DNA of 51,370 nucleotides from Anaerolineales bacterium (GTDB taxonomy: Bacteria; Chloroflexota; Anaerolineae; Anaerolineales; Villigracilaceae): NCBI GenBank assembly GCA_020060625.1, contig JAGUZU010000100.1:1-51370 (forward strand). Reading direction: 5' to 3'. The notes under the pieces are model-generated. The model was not told where the DNA came from and did no database searches. It saw nothing but the letters and a program-made list of their open reading frames with translations. The translations under genes were made by a program, and so were the position numbers. This document shows positions 47,285 to 51,232 of the stretch, one piece after another. Within the stretch, counting starts at the first letter, position 1, and the number at the start of each line of letters is the position of its first letter.

Positions 47285-47354
47285 GTGTATAATATCCCAA
47301 TCATTTTGCGCGGCAAAATGAAACCCCCTATTCTCTTTATTGGAGGAGAAACCA

Positions 47355-49115
47355 ATGAAACGAAACCTGTTTGCCTTGTTTTCGTTGCTGGTGATTGCCG
47401 GCATGTTGCTTGCGGCATGCGGCGGGACGGCTACTGAAGCGCCCGTCGAAGAACCAGCCACGGAAGCCACGGAGGCTCCTGCAACCGAGGCGCCTGCCGA
47501 AGAGGAACCCGCCGCCCCCGCGGATGTTTCCATTGCCACGTTCGACGGCACATCGCTTTCCGTGCCGGCTGAGGAATGCAATGGCGACTACATTGGCGCG
47601 TTCCAATCTATTGTTGCGACCGACGCGAACACCGTGACCTTCACCCTGTGCCGCTCGGATCCCGCTTTCCTCTCGAAGATTGCCTTTAACGTGTTTGGCA
47701 TCTATCCCTCGGAATGGCTTGAAGCCACAGCCGGCGATGGAAGCCGCACCAGCGAAGGTCTCGAGCGCCCAGTTGGCACAGGTCCCTACGTCCTCAGCGA
47801 ATGGAACCGCGGTGAGAGCATCACCTTCACTGCCAACCCCGATTACTGGGGTGACGCTCCCGAGGCTGAGACCCTCGTCTTCCGCTGGAGCACGGAATCT
47901 GCCCAGCGCCTGCTCGAACTCCAGTCCGGCACGATTGACGGCATTGACAATGTTGGTCCTGCAGACTTTGATGTGGTAGCCAGCGATCCCAGCCTGTCTC
48001 TGAACGAACGCCCGGCTTTGAACGTGTTCTACCTTGCCATGACCAATACCTTCGCGCCGTTCGATAACCAGGAAGTCCGCCAGGCAATTGCCAAGGGCAT
48101 TGACCGCCAGCGCATTGTGGACACTTTCTATCCCGCCGGCTCCGAAGTCGCTTCGCACTTCACACCCTGCGCCATCCCGAATGGCTGTGCCGGCGATGCC
48201 TGGTATGAATTCGATGTTGAAGCCGCCCGCGCTCAACTGGCTGCCGCCGGTTACCCCGATGGCTTCTCGACCAAAATATTCTATCGCGATGTGGTGCGCG
48301 GTTACCTGCCGCAGGTCAGCAATGTGGCTCAGGATATCCAGGCTCAGTTGAAGGAAAACCTGAACATCGACGCCGAGATTGTCGCGATGGAATCCGGCGC
48401 GTTCATTGAAGAATCAACCGCTGGCCGTCTGGATGGTTTCTATCTGCTTGGTTGGGGCGCGGATTACCCGCACATCACCAATTTCCTGGATTTCCACTTT
48501 GGCGCTGCCAATCCGCAGTTCGGTGTCCAGTCTCCAACTTATTATGAGCCGATGGTTCAAGGCGCCCAGATCGCGGATCCCGCCGAAGCCGAACCTTTCT
48601 ATGTTGAAGCCAACAATGCCATTCGCGAATTCGTCCCGATGATCCCCGTGGCTCACGGTGGTTCCGGTACAGCTTACCGTGCGGATGTCACCAACCAGCA
48701 AGCCAGCCCGCTTGGCAATGAGTACTTTGCAGTGATGGATCCGGGTGGGCGCGACGTCTTCATTTGGATGCAGAACGCCGAACCGATCAGCCTGTTCTGC
48801 GCGGATGAGACCGACGGCGAATCCCTGCGCGCTTGTGAGCAGGTCGTTGAAGCGCTCTACAGCTACGAAGTCAACGGCACTGCAACTCAGCCCGCGCTGG
48901 CGGAAGCTTGCACCCCCAACGATGACTTGACGGTTTGGACGTGCACGTTGCGCCAGGGAATTAAATTCCACGATGGCAGTGATTTCGATGCTGCGGATGT
49001 TGTAGCCACATTTAATATGGGTCTCAACATTGGGTCTCCAACCCACGTCGGTAACACCGCTGCGTGGGAGTATTACGACTATCTCTGGGGTCTGATGAAG
49101 AAACCCGGTCAATAG
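47355..49115 (+). CDS. Circularly permuted family-5 solute-binding lipoprotein (SBP_bac_5-like)
   Basis: A 586-aa lipoprotein with signal peptide and lipobox (LLAACGG), then a Glu/Thr/Pro/Ala linker. The body starts inside the usual fold: SIVATDANTVTFTL and FGIYPSEWLEA, then PVGTGPYVLSEW, NPDYWG and DNQEVRQAIAKGIDR, which normally follow about 120 residues of N-terminal lobe. That lobe is found at the end instead (residues 467-586): DVFIWMQNAEPISLF, QPALAEACTPNDDLTVWTCT and KFHDGSDFDAADVV. Joining the end to the start recreates the canonical order without gap or overlap. It leads an oligopeptide ABC operon with two permeases. Confidence 0.85.
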   Translation: MKRNLFALFSLLVIAGMLLAACGGTATEAPVEEPATEATEAPATEAPAEEEPAAPADVSIATFDGTSLSVPAEECNGDYIGAFQSIVATDANTVTFTLCRSDPAFLSKIAFNVFGIYPSEWLEATAGDGSRTSEGLERPVGTGPYVLSEWNRGESITFTANPDYWGDAPEAETLVFRWSTESAQRLLELQSGTIDGIDNVGPADFDVVASDPSLSLNERPALNVFYLAMTNTFAPFDNQEVRQAIAKGIDRQRIVDTFYPAGSEVASHFTPCAIPNGCAGDAWYEFDVEAARAQLAAAGYPDGFSTKIFYRDVVRGYLPQVSNVAQDIQAQLKENLNIDAEIVAMESGAFIEESTAGRLDGFYLLGWGADYPHITNFLDFHFGAANPQFGVQSPTYYEPMVQGAQIADPAEAEPFYVEANNAIREFVPMIPVAHGGSGTAYRADVTNQQASPLGNEYFAVMDPGGRDVFIWMQNAEPISLFCADETDGESLRACEQVVEALYSYEVNGTATQPALAEACTPNDDLTVWTCTLRQGIKFHDGSDFDAADVVATFNMGLNIGSPTHVGNTAAWEYYDYLWGLMKKPGQ

Positions 49116-49195: not shown

Positions 49196-50275
49196 ATGAT
49201 CCAGTATGTTATCCGCAGGGTTATTTCATCCATACCGGTCTTATTTGGAATTCTGATCGTTACTTTTATTATCGCGCGCGTGATCCCCGGCGATCCGTGC
49301 AAAGCCATTCTTGGCGAAAAAGCCACACCAGCCGTTTGTGAAAGATTCATGCGCGAAAAAGGGCTGGACAGATCCATTCCAGAACAACTTGTTATCTATA
49401 TGGGTGAAGTGTTGCGCGGCGATTTTGGCGATTCGATCCGTATGAACATCCCCGTAACACGCCTGCTGATCGAGCGACTGCCCACCACCGTCGAATTAAG
49501 CCTTGCCGCTCTTTTCGTCAGCATAGTCGTTGGGATTCCGCTTGGGGTGATTTCCGCGGTCAAACACAATACCTGGATTGACGTGCTGACCATGATATGG
49601 GCAAACATCGGCGTTTCCATGCCGGTCTTCTGGCTGGGTCTGATGCTGGCATACGTGTTCTCGCTCTTATTGAAAGATACCCCCTTCTGGCTGCCTCCGT
49701 CTGGACGAGTCAGCGCCGGCATCTCGAATGATCCCTTTTTCAAGGTGTGGGGTTGGGACCTGCCCGATGGCGGATTTTTGGCGGGATTGCTCGTCTTCTT
49801 TTCGCGCATGAACATTTTGAACGCATTGCTGACCGCCAATTGGAAATTGCTCAAGGATGCGGCGGAACATCTCATCCTGCCGGCGCTTGCGCTCGGCACA
49901 ATTCCCATGGCGCTGATCGCCCGCATGACGCGCTCGTCCATGCTGGATGTGCTTGGACAGGACTATATCCGCACTGCAAGAGCCAAAGGATTGGGACATA
50001 TTGGCGTGATCATCAAACACTCCTTCCGCAACGCGCTTCTGCCGCTTGTCACTGTCATTGGTCTCTCATTGGGAGGATTGCTGGGAGGGGCAGTGTTGAC
50101 CGAAACGGTCTTCGGACTCTCCGGGTTGGGACGCACACTTTTCGAAGCCATCACTGCGCGCGATTACGGCATTGTACAATCCTTTACAGTTGTGATCGCT
50201 TTTTTCTATGTTGTCATCAACCTGCTTGTGGATATATCGTACGCATATCTCGATCCCCGAATCCGTCTTAGTTAG
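49196..50275 (+). CDS. Peptide-type ABC transporter permease, DppB-like
   Basis: A 359-aa permease with six membrane helices. The start is MIQYVIRRVISSIPVLFGIL, with GKDLG-like FHDLKPDNII absent as expected; the EAA loop DYIRTARAKGLGHIGVIIKH and the late AVLTETVFGLSGLGRTL segment are clear family marks. It follows the binding protein after a hairpin, and the next permease starts 9 nt after its stop. Confidence 0.93.
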   Translation: MIQYVIRRVISSIPVLFGILIVTFIIARVIPGDPCKAILGEKATPAVCERFMREKGLDRSIPEQLVIYMGEVLRGDFGDSIRMNIPVTRLLIERLPTTVELSLAALFVSIVVGIPLGVISAVKHNTWIDVLTMIWANIGVSMPVFWLGLMLAYVFSLLLKDTPFWLPPSGRVSAGISNDPFFKVWGWDLPDGGFLAGLLVFFSRMNILNALLTANWKLLKDAAEHLILPALALGTIPMALIARMTRSSMLDVLGQDYIRTARAKGLGHIGVIIKHSFRNALLPLVTVIGLSLGGLLGGAVLTETVFGLSGLGRTLFEAITARDYGIVQSFTVVIAFFYVVINLLVDISYAYLDPRIRLS

Positions 50276-50284
50276 GAAGCACCA

Positions 50285-51232
50285 ATGGCAAACACCGACA
50301 CAAATATTGCGCAACTGGATGCGGAAAAATTAACCCTGCGATCCACAAGCTTATGGCAGATTACATGGCAGCGCTTATTCCGCCGTCGTTCTGCCATAGT
50401 GGGCATGATCATACTCGGCTTTTTGGTGTTCATTGCCCTGACAGCTCAATGGCTTGCTCCATATGGATACCAGGAAGTATTGATTGGCAAGGAAGATGTC
50501 AAGGCAAGGGAAAAGCCCTGTATTCATCTTCTGGGATGTCCAGCGGATCAACCCCAGCACTTTGCCGGCATTGATGGAAACGTACGCGATCAATACAGCC
50601 GCTTATTGTATGGCGCGCGCCTGAGCCTGATGGTGGGGTTTTCCACGGTCACTTTCGCCATCATTATCGGGACAACGCTGGGAGCCCTTGCCGGTTATTT
50701 CGGCGGGTGGTGGGATAACATCATCATGCGTATCATGGACGTCCTGCTCGCATTCCCATCCCTAATCCTTGCCATTGCCATTGTTACGGTTCTCGGACCC
50801 GGACTGATCAATGCCCTGCTTGCAATCGGCATTGTCTCCATCCCAGCCTACGCCCGCGTGATGCGCGCCTCGGTTCTGACCGTGCGCGAAATGGAATATA
50901 TCTCGGCAACCCGCGCCCTGGGTGGCAACAATTTCCAAATCCTCTTTGGCAGGATTCTTCCCAACGCGTTGACGCCGTTGATTGTGCAAGGCACGCTTGG
51001 CATTGCCTCCGCCATCCTCGATGCGGCGGCGCTGTCCTTTCTCGGTCTTGGCGCGCAACCGCCTACACCGGAATGGGGATCCATGCTCGGCGCGGAACGC
51101 AACCAGGTGTTCACCGCGCCTCATCTTGTGTTCTACCCCGGCTTCATGATCATGATCACCGTGCTTTCCTTCAACCTGATCGGCGACGGTCTGCGCGACG
51201 CGCTCGACCCAAGACTTGCGCACGTGAGTTAA
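50285..51232 (+). CDS. Peptide-type ABC transporter permease, DppC-like
   Basis: A 315-aa permease with an N-terminal OppC-type segment, LWQITWQRLFRRRSAIVGMI, a periplasmic loop, and the EAA region REMEYISATRALGGNNFQIL. FLGLGAQPPTPEWGSML closes the family pattern. The start lies 9 nt after the DppB-like stop, with a terminator right after its own stop. The ATPase genes of the operon are not within the window and may be encoded elsewhere. Confidence 0.93.
   Translation: MANTDTNIAQLDAEKLTLRSTSLWQITWQRLFRRRSAIVGMIILGFLVFIALTAQWLAPYGYQEVLIGKEDVKAREKPCIHLLGCPADQPQHFAGIDGNVRDQYSRLLYGARLSLMVGFSTVTFAIIIGTTLGALAGYFGGWWDNIIMRIMDVLLAFPSLILAIAIVTVLGPGLINALLAIGIVSIPAYARVMRASVLTVREMEYISATRALGGNNFQILFGRILPNALTPLIVQGTLGIASAILDAAALSFLGLGAQPPTPEWGSMLGAERNQVFTAPHLVFYPGFMIMITVLSFNLIGDGLRDALDPRLAHVS

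Follow-up and report, generated by a model that had tools for sequence, protein, structure and literature searches.

The gene at positions 47355-49115 of the window (the whole analysed stretch of 51,370 nucleotides, from an Anaerolineales bacterium) raises the question of whether a peptide-binding lipoprotein of an ABC importer can carry its chain in rotated order and still serve transport. The sequence-only reading had taken the gene for a natural circular permutation, and its coordinates proved correct. We hold with high confidence that its product is the lipid-anchored substrate-binding protein (SBP) of a Dpp-type importer of peptides and that a single circular permutation of this chain took place in a Chloroflexota ancestor. 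This is the best explanation of what could be demonstrated, namely the module order, a single branch among the sampled sequences, kept ligand residues and permease genes, and purifying selection. The features of the locus are:

47340..47354, + strand: ribosome-binding site region TTGGAGGAGAAACCA, read directly
47355..49115, + strand: circularly permuted SBP_bac_5 (DppA-like) lipoprotein gene, 586 amino acids plus stop, open reading frame confirmed
47355..47420, + strand: lipoprotein signal peptide and lipobox with Cys22, LLAAC read directly
47421..47519, + strand: low-complexity linker, residues 23-55 (residues 16-52 are Pro/Thr/Ala/Glu-rich, with pLDDT below 50)
47520..47600, + strand: new N-terminal segment, residues 56-82, with Cys75, which is present in 95 of 95 unique sequences
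47601..48734, + strand: module B, residues 83-460, the canonical body (DppA about 123-504), from sequence matches and from the model against 3m8u
48297..48299, + strand: Arg315, placed by the 1dpe alignment at DppA Arg355, the residue for the dipeptide carboxyl group
48462..48464, + strand: Asp370, placed by the 1dpe alignment at DppA Asp408, the residue for the dipeptide amino group
48735..48755, + strand: joint MDPGGRD, residues 461-467, from old C-terminus to old N-terminus, by comparison with canonical proteins
48756..49076, + strand: module N, residues 468-574, the canonical N-terminal approximately 100 residues, from sequence matches
49077..49112, + strand: new C-terminal tail, residues 575-586, where canonical relatives continue into module B
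49196..50275, + strand: DppB-type permease, its scoop-loop positions occupied by Glu41 and Lys42
50285..51232, + strand: DppC-type permease

The gene has a GGAGGAG six bases 5' of its ATG, and the ribosome-binding site region together with the ATG gave a single match in the whole window and none in 100 shuffles. A lipobox-like motif, searched with a regular expression of our own, was present in 86 of the 95 unique permuted sequences.

The rotated order was recovered in several kinds of search. Pfam places the protein in SBP_bac_5 (PF00496) with 259 bits against a gathering cut-off of 32.4 (whole-protein E 9.8e-77), and does so in two stretches, the better of which pairs residues 82-386 with profile positions 64-365. 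In a PDB sequence search, residues 83-458 matched residues 126-502 of GbpA/HbpA (3m8u) and residues 477-575 matched residues 13-118 of the same chain. A profile of 33 sequences likewise returned i-E values of 2e-63 for the body and 6.8e-14 for the N-terminal part. These two-stretch matches confirm that the motifs after the lipobox and linker stand in rotated order, as had been noticed from the letters alone. The canonical SBP_bac_5 chain order is not met, as the body comes first and the N-terminal part after it, and annotation that depends on this order sees a permuted SBP as two stretches.

The old termini of the window protein are connected by about seven residues. The joint reads ...SPLGNEYFAV-MDPGGRD-VFIWMQNAEP... 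and was compared with the canonical protein of L070, whose C-terminal end is ...SPFGRNSFYGVANQP and whose start is LVYCSEGSPAGF. Between the B and N profile matches there is a gap of only 9-12 residues in 95 of 95 unique permuted sequences, so that the old C-terminal end does abut the old N-terminal start. The new ends lie where canonical relatives pass from '...YYxxVFGG' or a similar motif into the next strand. A second N-terminal lobe hidden in residues 20-60 would have refuted a permutation; it was looked for and is absent, and no permuted open reading frame (ORF) had two N-module matches at the threshold used. By sequence, the protein meets the definition of a circular permutation, with every canonical part present once, the order rotated and the old termini joined. 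The proposed permutation is supported by the order of the stretches, the lack of a duplicate, the short joint and the conservation over many genera.

An AlphaFold2 model of the window protein (mean pLDDT 83.9, pTM 0.80) shows the SBP_bac_5 body fold. Residues about 57-466 aligned with 3m8u, 1dpp and others at Z 27.6-23.1 among the 50 matches listed. Using VIA-align, the model body was superposed on 3m8u (GbpA) with Z 27.6 and an rmsd of 2.5 over 386 aligned residues, on 5f1q with Z 26.9 and an rmsd of 2.4, and on 1dpp with Z 26.8 and an rmsd of 2.5; longer Foldseek alignments of the model had an rmsd of 5-15, and the Foldseek TM-score was 0.60. Since the VIA-align rows cover only model residues 56-466 and Foldseek reported no residue ranges, it is the AlphaFold model, with its 33-row alignment, and homology that locate module N in the fold. 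Judged by the DppA domain boundaries, the new termini presumably fall in domain II and not at the hinge.

The window genome is in 155 contigs and holds several SBP_bac_5-like matches, and one might suspect that an assembly or binning error fused the halves of neighbouring SBP genes. We give this reading practically no weight, and it is refuted by the number of independent assemblies. Among 61 relatives, 31 genomes (the window's own included) match at E<=1e-60; the other 30, the one-contig assembly G021 among them, have no match at this threshold, and the gene is patchy. Across 400 genomes of the phylum, searched for further permuted members as had been proposed, 72 match at E<=1e-50; we take this phylum to be Chloroflexota from the titles of named contigs that carry close relatives. 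When the rows were read by hand, 60 of these genomes matched across the old termini in one frame, one was partial (G270) and 11 matched only residues 77-461, as canonical proteins do. Three of the 60 (G026, G248, G361) are given as one contig. The same order and the gap of 9-12 residues recur in the 95 unique sequences, and dN/dS between the window gene and four relatives is 0.08-0.17 (two of the dS values are above 1.2 and therefore rough), all of which speaks against an assembly artefact. A canonical query gave the mirror image, with, by hand count, 56 of 73 listed rows starting at residue 77 or before and 17 permuted ones starting at 176-190.

We also read the order of module N and module B profiles in every ORF of at least 200 amino acids. 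The first 144 loci contained 104 B-N, 48 N-B, five B-only and one B-B-N ORFs, and the full set of 214 loci contained 144, 78, nine and one, respectively; some genomes are present twice in these sets, and later loci were picked for long frames. A search of genome contigs yielded 63 loci, 32 of which (L038-L068, L097) carry permuted ORFs, and their titles all read Anaerolineales, Anaerolineae, Anaerolineaceae, Anaerolinea, Chloroflexi or Chloroflexota. The match of L089, likewise from Anaerolineales, covers only residues 544-583, at the start of a contig, where the order is not readable; the remaining loci are canonical or partial matches. The patterns of this contig search favour close relatives, and other phyla lie outside the sampling of the genome searches.

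Some loci have an unusual arrangement. L133 and L134 (G377, a 1.2-Mb genome) each carry two permuted SBP genes in tandem, and in L139, L140 and L141 a canonical SBP_bac_5 gene stands head-to-head with a divergent permuted one. Two permuted genes are N-terminally cut within long contigs. For the one in G390 (L233:5615-7461), an overlapping ORF read in a different frame holds the missing B part, suggestive of a frameshift or a sequencing error; for the one in G664 (L232:5447-6481), no other piece was found among ORFs of at least 100 amino acids.

For phylogenetic trees, the modules were put into common order. FastTree with 95 permuted and 72 canonical sequences recovered the permuted proteins as one clade (support 0.98 for both modules, 0.91 for N and 0.93 for B). 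IQ-TREE split 20 permuted from 46 canonical representatives by one branch (SH-aLRT 100) and placed five canonical proteins from the same phylum as sister of the permuted clade (support 87); the program warned that some rows have long branches and an odd composition. Judged from these sequence trees, and within the sequences sampled, the permutation apparently had a single origin. The nearest canonical relatives of the window protein (L142, L143, L144, L147, L166) share 33-39% identity with it in N and 34-35% in B, L143 reaching 39% and 34%, respectively. Canonical SBP_bac_5 proteins of the phylum that form the sister group or stand near it (L143, L144, L153, L154, L156) differ in keeping the canonical order, in lacking Cys at 99, 272 and 278, and in having no fused receptor that we could find.

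These identities bear on the origin of the moved part. The C-terminal approximately 110 residues could be an autonomous domain gained separately, or could stem from another gene, and for the permuted SBP TpMglB-2, whose permuted part is poorly conserved, a foreign origin was considered (PMC4990184). In the window protein, the similarity to the same canonical relatives is about as high in N as in B, and this speaks against a foreign origin. Furthermore, permuted ORFs lack any other N module, and the permuted proteins form one clade in the separate N and B trees. We regard a foreign module N as very improbable. An autonomous C-terminal domain is unlikely given these identities and the contrast in predicted confidence, as module N has a pLDDT of 57.5 when modelled alone and block means of 72-98 within the whole protein. 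Such a contrast would be shown by an integral part of the fold, with the qualification that a shallow alignment also lowers confidence and could explain the difference.

The permuted proteins carry characteristic cysteines. Among 132 unique permuted sequences, positions 75/99 are both Cys in 129, neither in two (L205 and L206) and split in one (L065), which is probably an alignment matter, as a Cys is found a few residues upstream, before an insert. Positions 272/278 are both Cys in 113, neither in 19 and never split; positions 482/494 are both Cys in 127, neither in two and split in three; positions 519/530 are both Cys in 82, neither in 50 and never split. As a control, mismatched pairings among the latter three pairs were split in 18-50 sequences. 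Since the two cysteines of each pair occur together or are missing together in nearly every sequence, we infer that all four pairs are likely disulfides. Cys99 occurs in none of the 72 canonical sequences, a Cys within 25 residues before module B in two of the 72, and Cys at positions 272 and 278 in none. One canonical sister (L144) has Cys at both 482 and 494, and three other canonical sequences have it at both 519 and 530; hence these two pairs need not be tied to the permutation. The position of the 75/99 pair beside the new N-terminus suggests a staple gained with the permutation or soon after it.

Does the permuted protein still serve a peptide importer? In the DppA precursor, R383 and D436 bind the carboxyl and amino groups of the dipeptide, and a charge-reversal double mutant was without dipeptide binding (PMC12136057). 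By our own arithmetic these are residues 355 and 408 of the mature chain, and Asp408 is named as a ligand residue in PMC3295651. Both ligand residues have their counterparts in the window protein, Arg315 and Asp370, and the two positions are kept in 127 and 129 of the 132 unique permuted sequences, respectively. Other residues align at both positions in the most divergent permuted proteins (L139, L140, L141), and another residue aligns at the Arg315 position in L125 and L138. The NCBIfam equivalog DppA_dipep is not met (167.9 bits against a cut-off of 1005), in part because of the permuted order; with this cut-off unmet, we call the window protein DppA-like and do not file it as DppA.

The window protein has the marks of an ABC importer lipoprotein, with LLAAC at its start and dppB- and dppC-type genes downstream. 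In 38 of the 45 permuted loci with more than 2300 bases downstream, dppB and then dppC come next, and the other seven have no dppB/dppC downstream on the same strand. The scoop residues of E. coli DppB are Glu41-Arg42 (PMC12136057); the window permease has Glu41-Lys42 at these positions. The window ends 138 bases after dppC, and this remainder holds no dppD or dppF ATPase genes; in L039 the next ORFs of at least 200 amino acids after dppC are on the opposite strand; ATPase genes may be encoded elsewhere in the genome. The permease operon, the kept ligand residues and the purifying selection support the earlier expectation that the window protein is probably functional, with function and fold inferred in the absence of structure or binding data.

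Many permuted SBPs are fused to a further domain. A class search covered 396 genomes, 167 of which had a match at E<=1e-70, and 150 matches are listed. By hand count, 41 of the 150 have open frames of at least 758 amino acids, and all 41 were examined. A second SBP domain precedes the permuted SBP, which forms the C-terminal half, in 36 of them; this is a lower bound, since listed matches with shorter frames are outside the count. In G760, G753 and G539 no second Pfam domain was found, G515:C1393 is a caspase-FHA fusion, and G655 is cut by a contig end and remains unclassified. Among 45 unique permuted ORFs with at least 200 residues before module B, Pfam found SBP_bac_3 in 29, Peripla_BP_6 in seven, SBP_bac_1 in one and caspase plus FHA in one; seven (L042, L127, L139, L201, L208, L210, L214) had no credible partner domain, and three, L188 among them, also match a haem-binding family. 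The partner family of each member was assigned by reading, with single Pfam rows for 10 of the 45. The 132-sequence FastTree requires at least 12 changes of the partner label and at least eight between the receptor-fused and unfused state. In a smaller canonical control that comes only partly from the same class, three of 56 rows had frames of at least 750 amino acids, none with a partner domain.

The architectures are diverse. Permuted SBP_bac_5 behind SBP_bac_3, Peripla_BP_6 (once or twice) or SBP_bac_1 was observed in L175-L199, L202-L207, L123, L128, L126, L107 and L108, the first fused domain being cut by the contig end in the last two. Two Peripla_BP_6 stretches are present in L196 and, by our own reading, seemingly in the second gene of L194. 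In L185, L187 and L188 a lipoprotein has a CxxCH haem-binding-like stretch, then SBP_bac_3 and then permuted SBP_bac_5. L125:2306-13885 (G022:C1) is a 3860-aa open frame with a repeat-rich N-terminus and repeated C-terminal stretches, in which a Bmp domain and a partial SBP_bac_5 precede the permuted one. L208:3686-5995 (G539:C266) has the permuted SBP_bac_5 behind a Pfam-less segment and a hydrophobic span seen by eye. L200:1908-5165 (G515:C1393, also L219), a 1086-aa frame, combines a Peptidase_C14 caspase, FHA, a hydrophobic span (again by eye) and permuted SBP_bac_5; a transmembrane receptor whose caspase-like domain lies in the cytoplasm is one possibility.

The abundance of double-SBP fusions, and the caspase-FHA fusion with its hydrophobic span and no dppB/dppC on its strand within 9.2 kb downstream, could be taken to mean that the permuted SBP no longer serves a peptide importer and has become a sensor or scaffold domain. 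We consider this improbable. The window gene encodes a stand-alone lipoprotein that adjoins dppB and dppC and has both ligand residues intact, and dppB followed by dppC is also found after most fusions with more than 2300 bases downstream (16 of 21 with SBP_bac_3, five of five with Peripla_BP_6). In two Peripla_BP_6 fusions dppB is 1.3 kb (L195) and 4.6 kb (first gene of L194) away. As for the five SBP_bac_3 exceptions, L199 has dppB and dppC in overlapping ORFs, and none were found for the other four. The double-SBP fusions are candidate importers of two kinds of nutrient on one permease.

Two of the 150 listed matches, G537:C509 (588 aa; L222:1164-2927) and G515:C900 (579 aa; L221:1866-3602), show a further rotation, with the order B(148-370)-N-B(1-149). 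They come from the same genus, are 89% identical, and both have a lipoprotein leader and dppB/dppC downstream; dN/dS between them is 0.10. Once their pieces had been rearranged for a common tree, both fell within the first-round clade; their sister is the single permutant of G555 (SH-aLRT 93), followed by the caspase-FHA fusion (97). When the second permutant was used for a class search at E<=1e-130, only these two of 396 genomes matched over residues 1-588, and the matches of the other 41 matching genomes were confined to residues 71-449. The second break lies directly before the '(x)xxVRQAIAMGID' motif; by the DppA domain boundaries, we take this to be roughly the point at which the chain passes into the other lobe. 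The N-to-B1 joint reads FLEVPPATATDTKYEAPNCDYGG (FTTFLEVP... in the other), that is, the end of a first-round permutant followed by the first-permutant-like leader segment 'TDTKYEAPNCDYGG'.

This joint is relevant for the route of permutation, for which duplication followed by partial deletion had been suggested. Fission and fusion of split genes, or other shuffling, might have rotated the chain instead, and indeed no tandem N-B-N-B intermediate was found among the ORFs of 214 loci, nor any leftover of a second copy; near the second permutant, no such match exceeded chance (lowest tblastn E 2.6). On the other hand, a leader such as 'TDTKYEAPNCDYGG' in the joint is what a tandem would leave where one copy passes into the following one, and it makes duplication plus deletion plausible. 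This evidence concerns the second event and not the first. For the first permutation, tandem duplication and deletion is likely but unproven, and we see a split-gene route as possible, at clearly lower odds. Taken together, we lean, without being sure, towards a serial natural permutation from N-B1-B2 to B1-B2-N in a Chloroflexota ancestor and on to B2-N-B1 in one genus, with purifying selection at each stage and, in most cases, the same permease type alongside. The first step would have given a disulfide-stapled N-terminus that was repeatedly mounted with a second receptor (SBP_bac_3, Peripla_BP_6 once or twice, SBP_bac_1, Bmp, haem-binding-like plus SBP_bac_3, or caspase-FHA-membrane span), yielding two-ligand ABC importers and possibly a transmembrane receptor.

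Mechanistically, a short linker would have connected the old C- and N-terminus, and the new opening of the chain would lie at DppA about 118-122, in the loop that leads from the helix following 'EYYxxLWG' to the next strand. The protein is inferred to fold as an ordinary two-lobed DppA, which would close on a peptide in Venus-flytrap manner, Arg315 holding the carboxyl and Asp370 the amino group, and would hand the peptide to DppB/DppC. With the new N-terminal segment fixed to the body by the putative disulfide Cys75-Cys99, a new face would become available for the exit of the membrane tether or of an entire second receptor domain. The tether would leave near DppA residue 120, a region that we take to be domain II, instead of at the old N-terminus. 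The pattern fits two non-exclusive ideas, a freer exit of the tether or partner and a plain tolerance of the fold for new ends; a benefit is not shown. The later fusions and the second permutation suggest that the fold tolerates moved termini well.

With E. coli DppA and Haemophilus GbpA/HbpA (SBP_bac_5, cluster C) the window protein shares homologous modules, the equivalents of Arg355 and Asp408, and DppB/DppC-type permeases; it differs in the rotated module order, the lipid anchor on a new N-terminus and the four likely disulfides. Natural permutation of an SBP is known, with TpMglB-2 (Tp0684) of Treponema pallidum as the one precedent found. According to PMC4990184, this membrane-tethered ABC SBP is naturally permuted and still binds its ligand, and its authors raised tethering as a possible reason for the permutation. 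TpMglB-2 is a cluster B glucose binder with another fold and break point; the window protein does not meet cluster B membership, as SBP_bac_5 is the only Pfam family found in it at E<=1. In contrast to the poorly conserved permuted part of TpMglB-2, module N is 33-39% identical to canonical relatives, and the accessible part of PMC4990184 mentions neither a fusion nor a second permutation, both of which occur in permuted SBP_bac_5. Tandem substrate-binding domains (SBDs) of different specificity in one ABC importer chain are known from GlnPQ (PMC8025302). Both SBDs of GlnPQ are linked to the membrane domain, whereas here SBP_bac_3, Peripla_BP_6, SBP_bac_1 or Bmp precedes the permuted SBP_bac_5. 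In open-licence PMC papers, the only literature searched, we found none on permuted SBP_bac_5, serial SBP permutation or these fusions.

Most natural circular permutations are known as isolated cases whose history is unknown. The history of the permuted SBP_bac_5 proteins is unusually readable, as one phylum holds a canonical sister group, 132 unique first-round and two second-round permutants, and at least eight changes between the receptor-fused and unfused state. Since all stages are present within one phylum, the order of events and the effects on tethering, folding and transport are directly testable.
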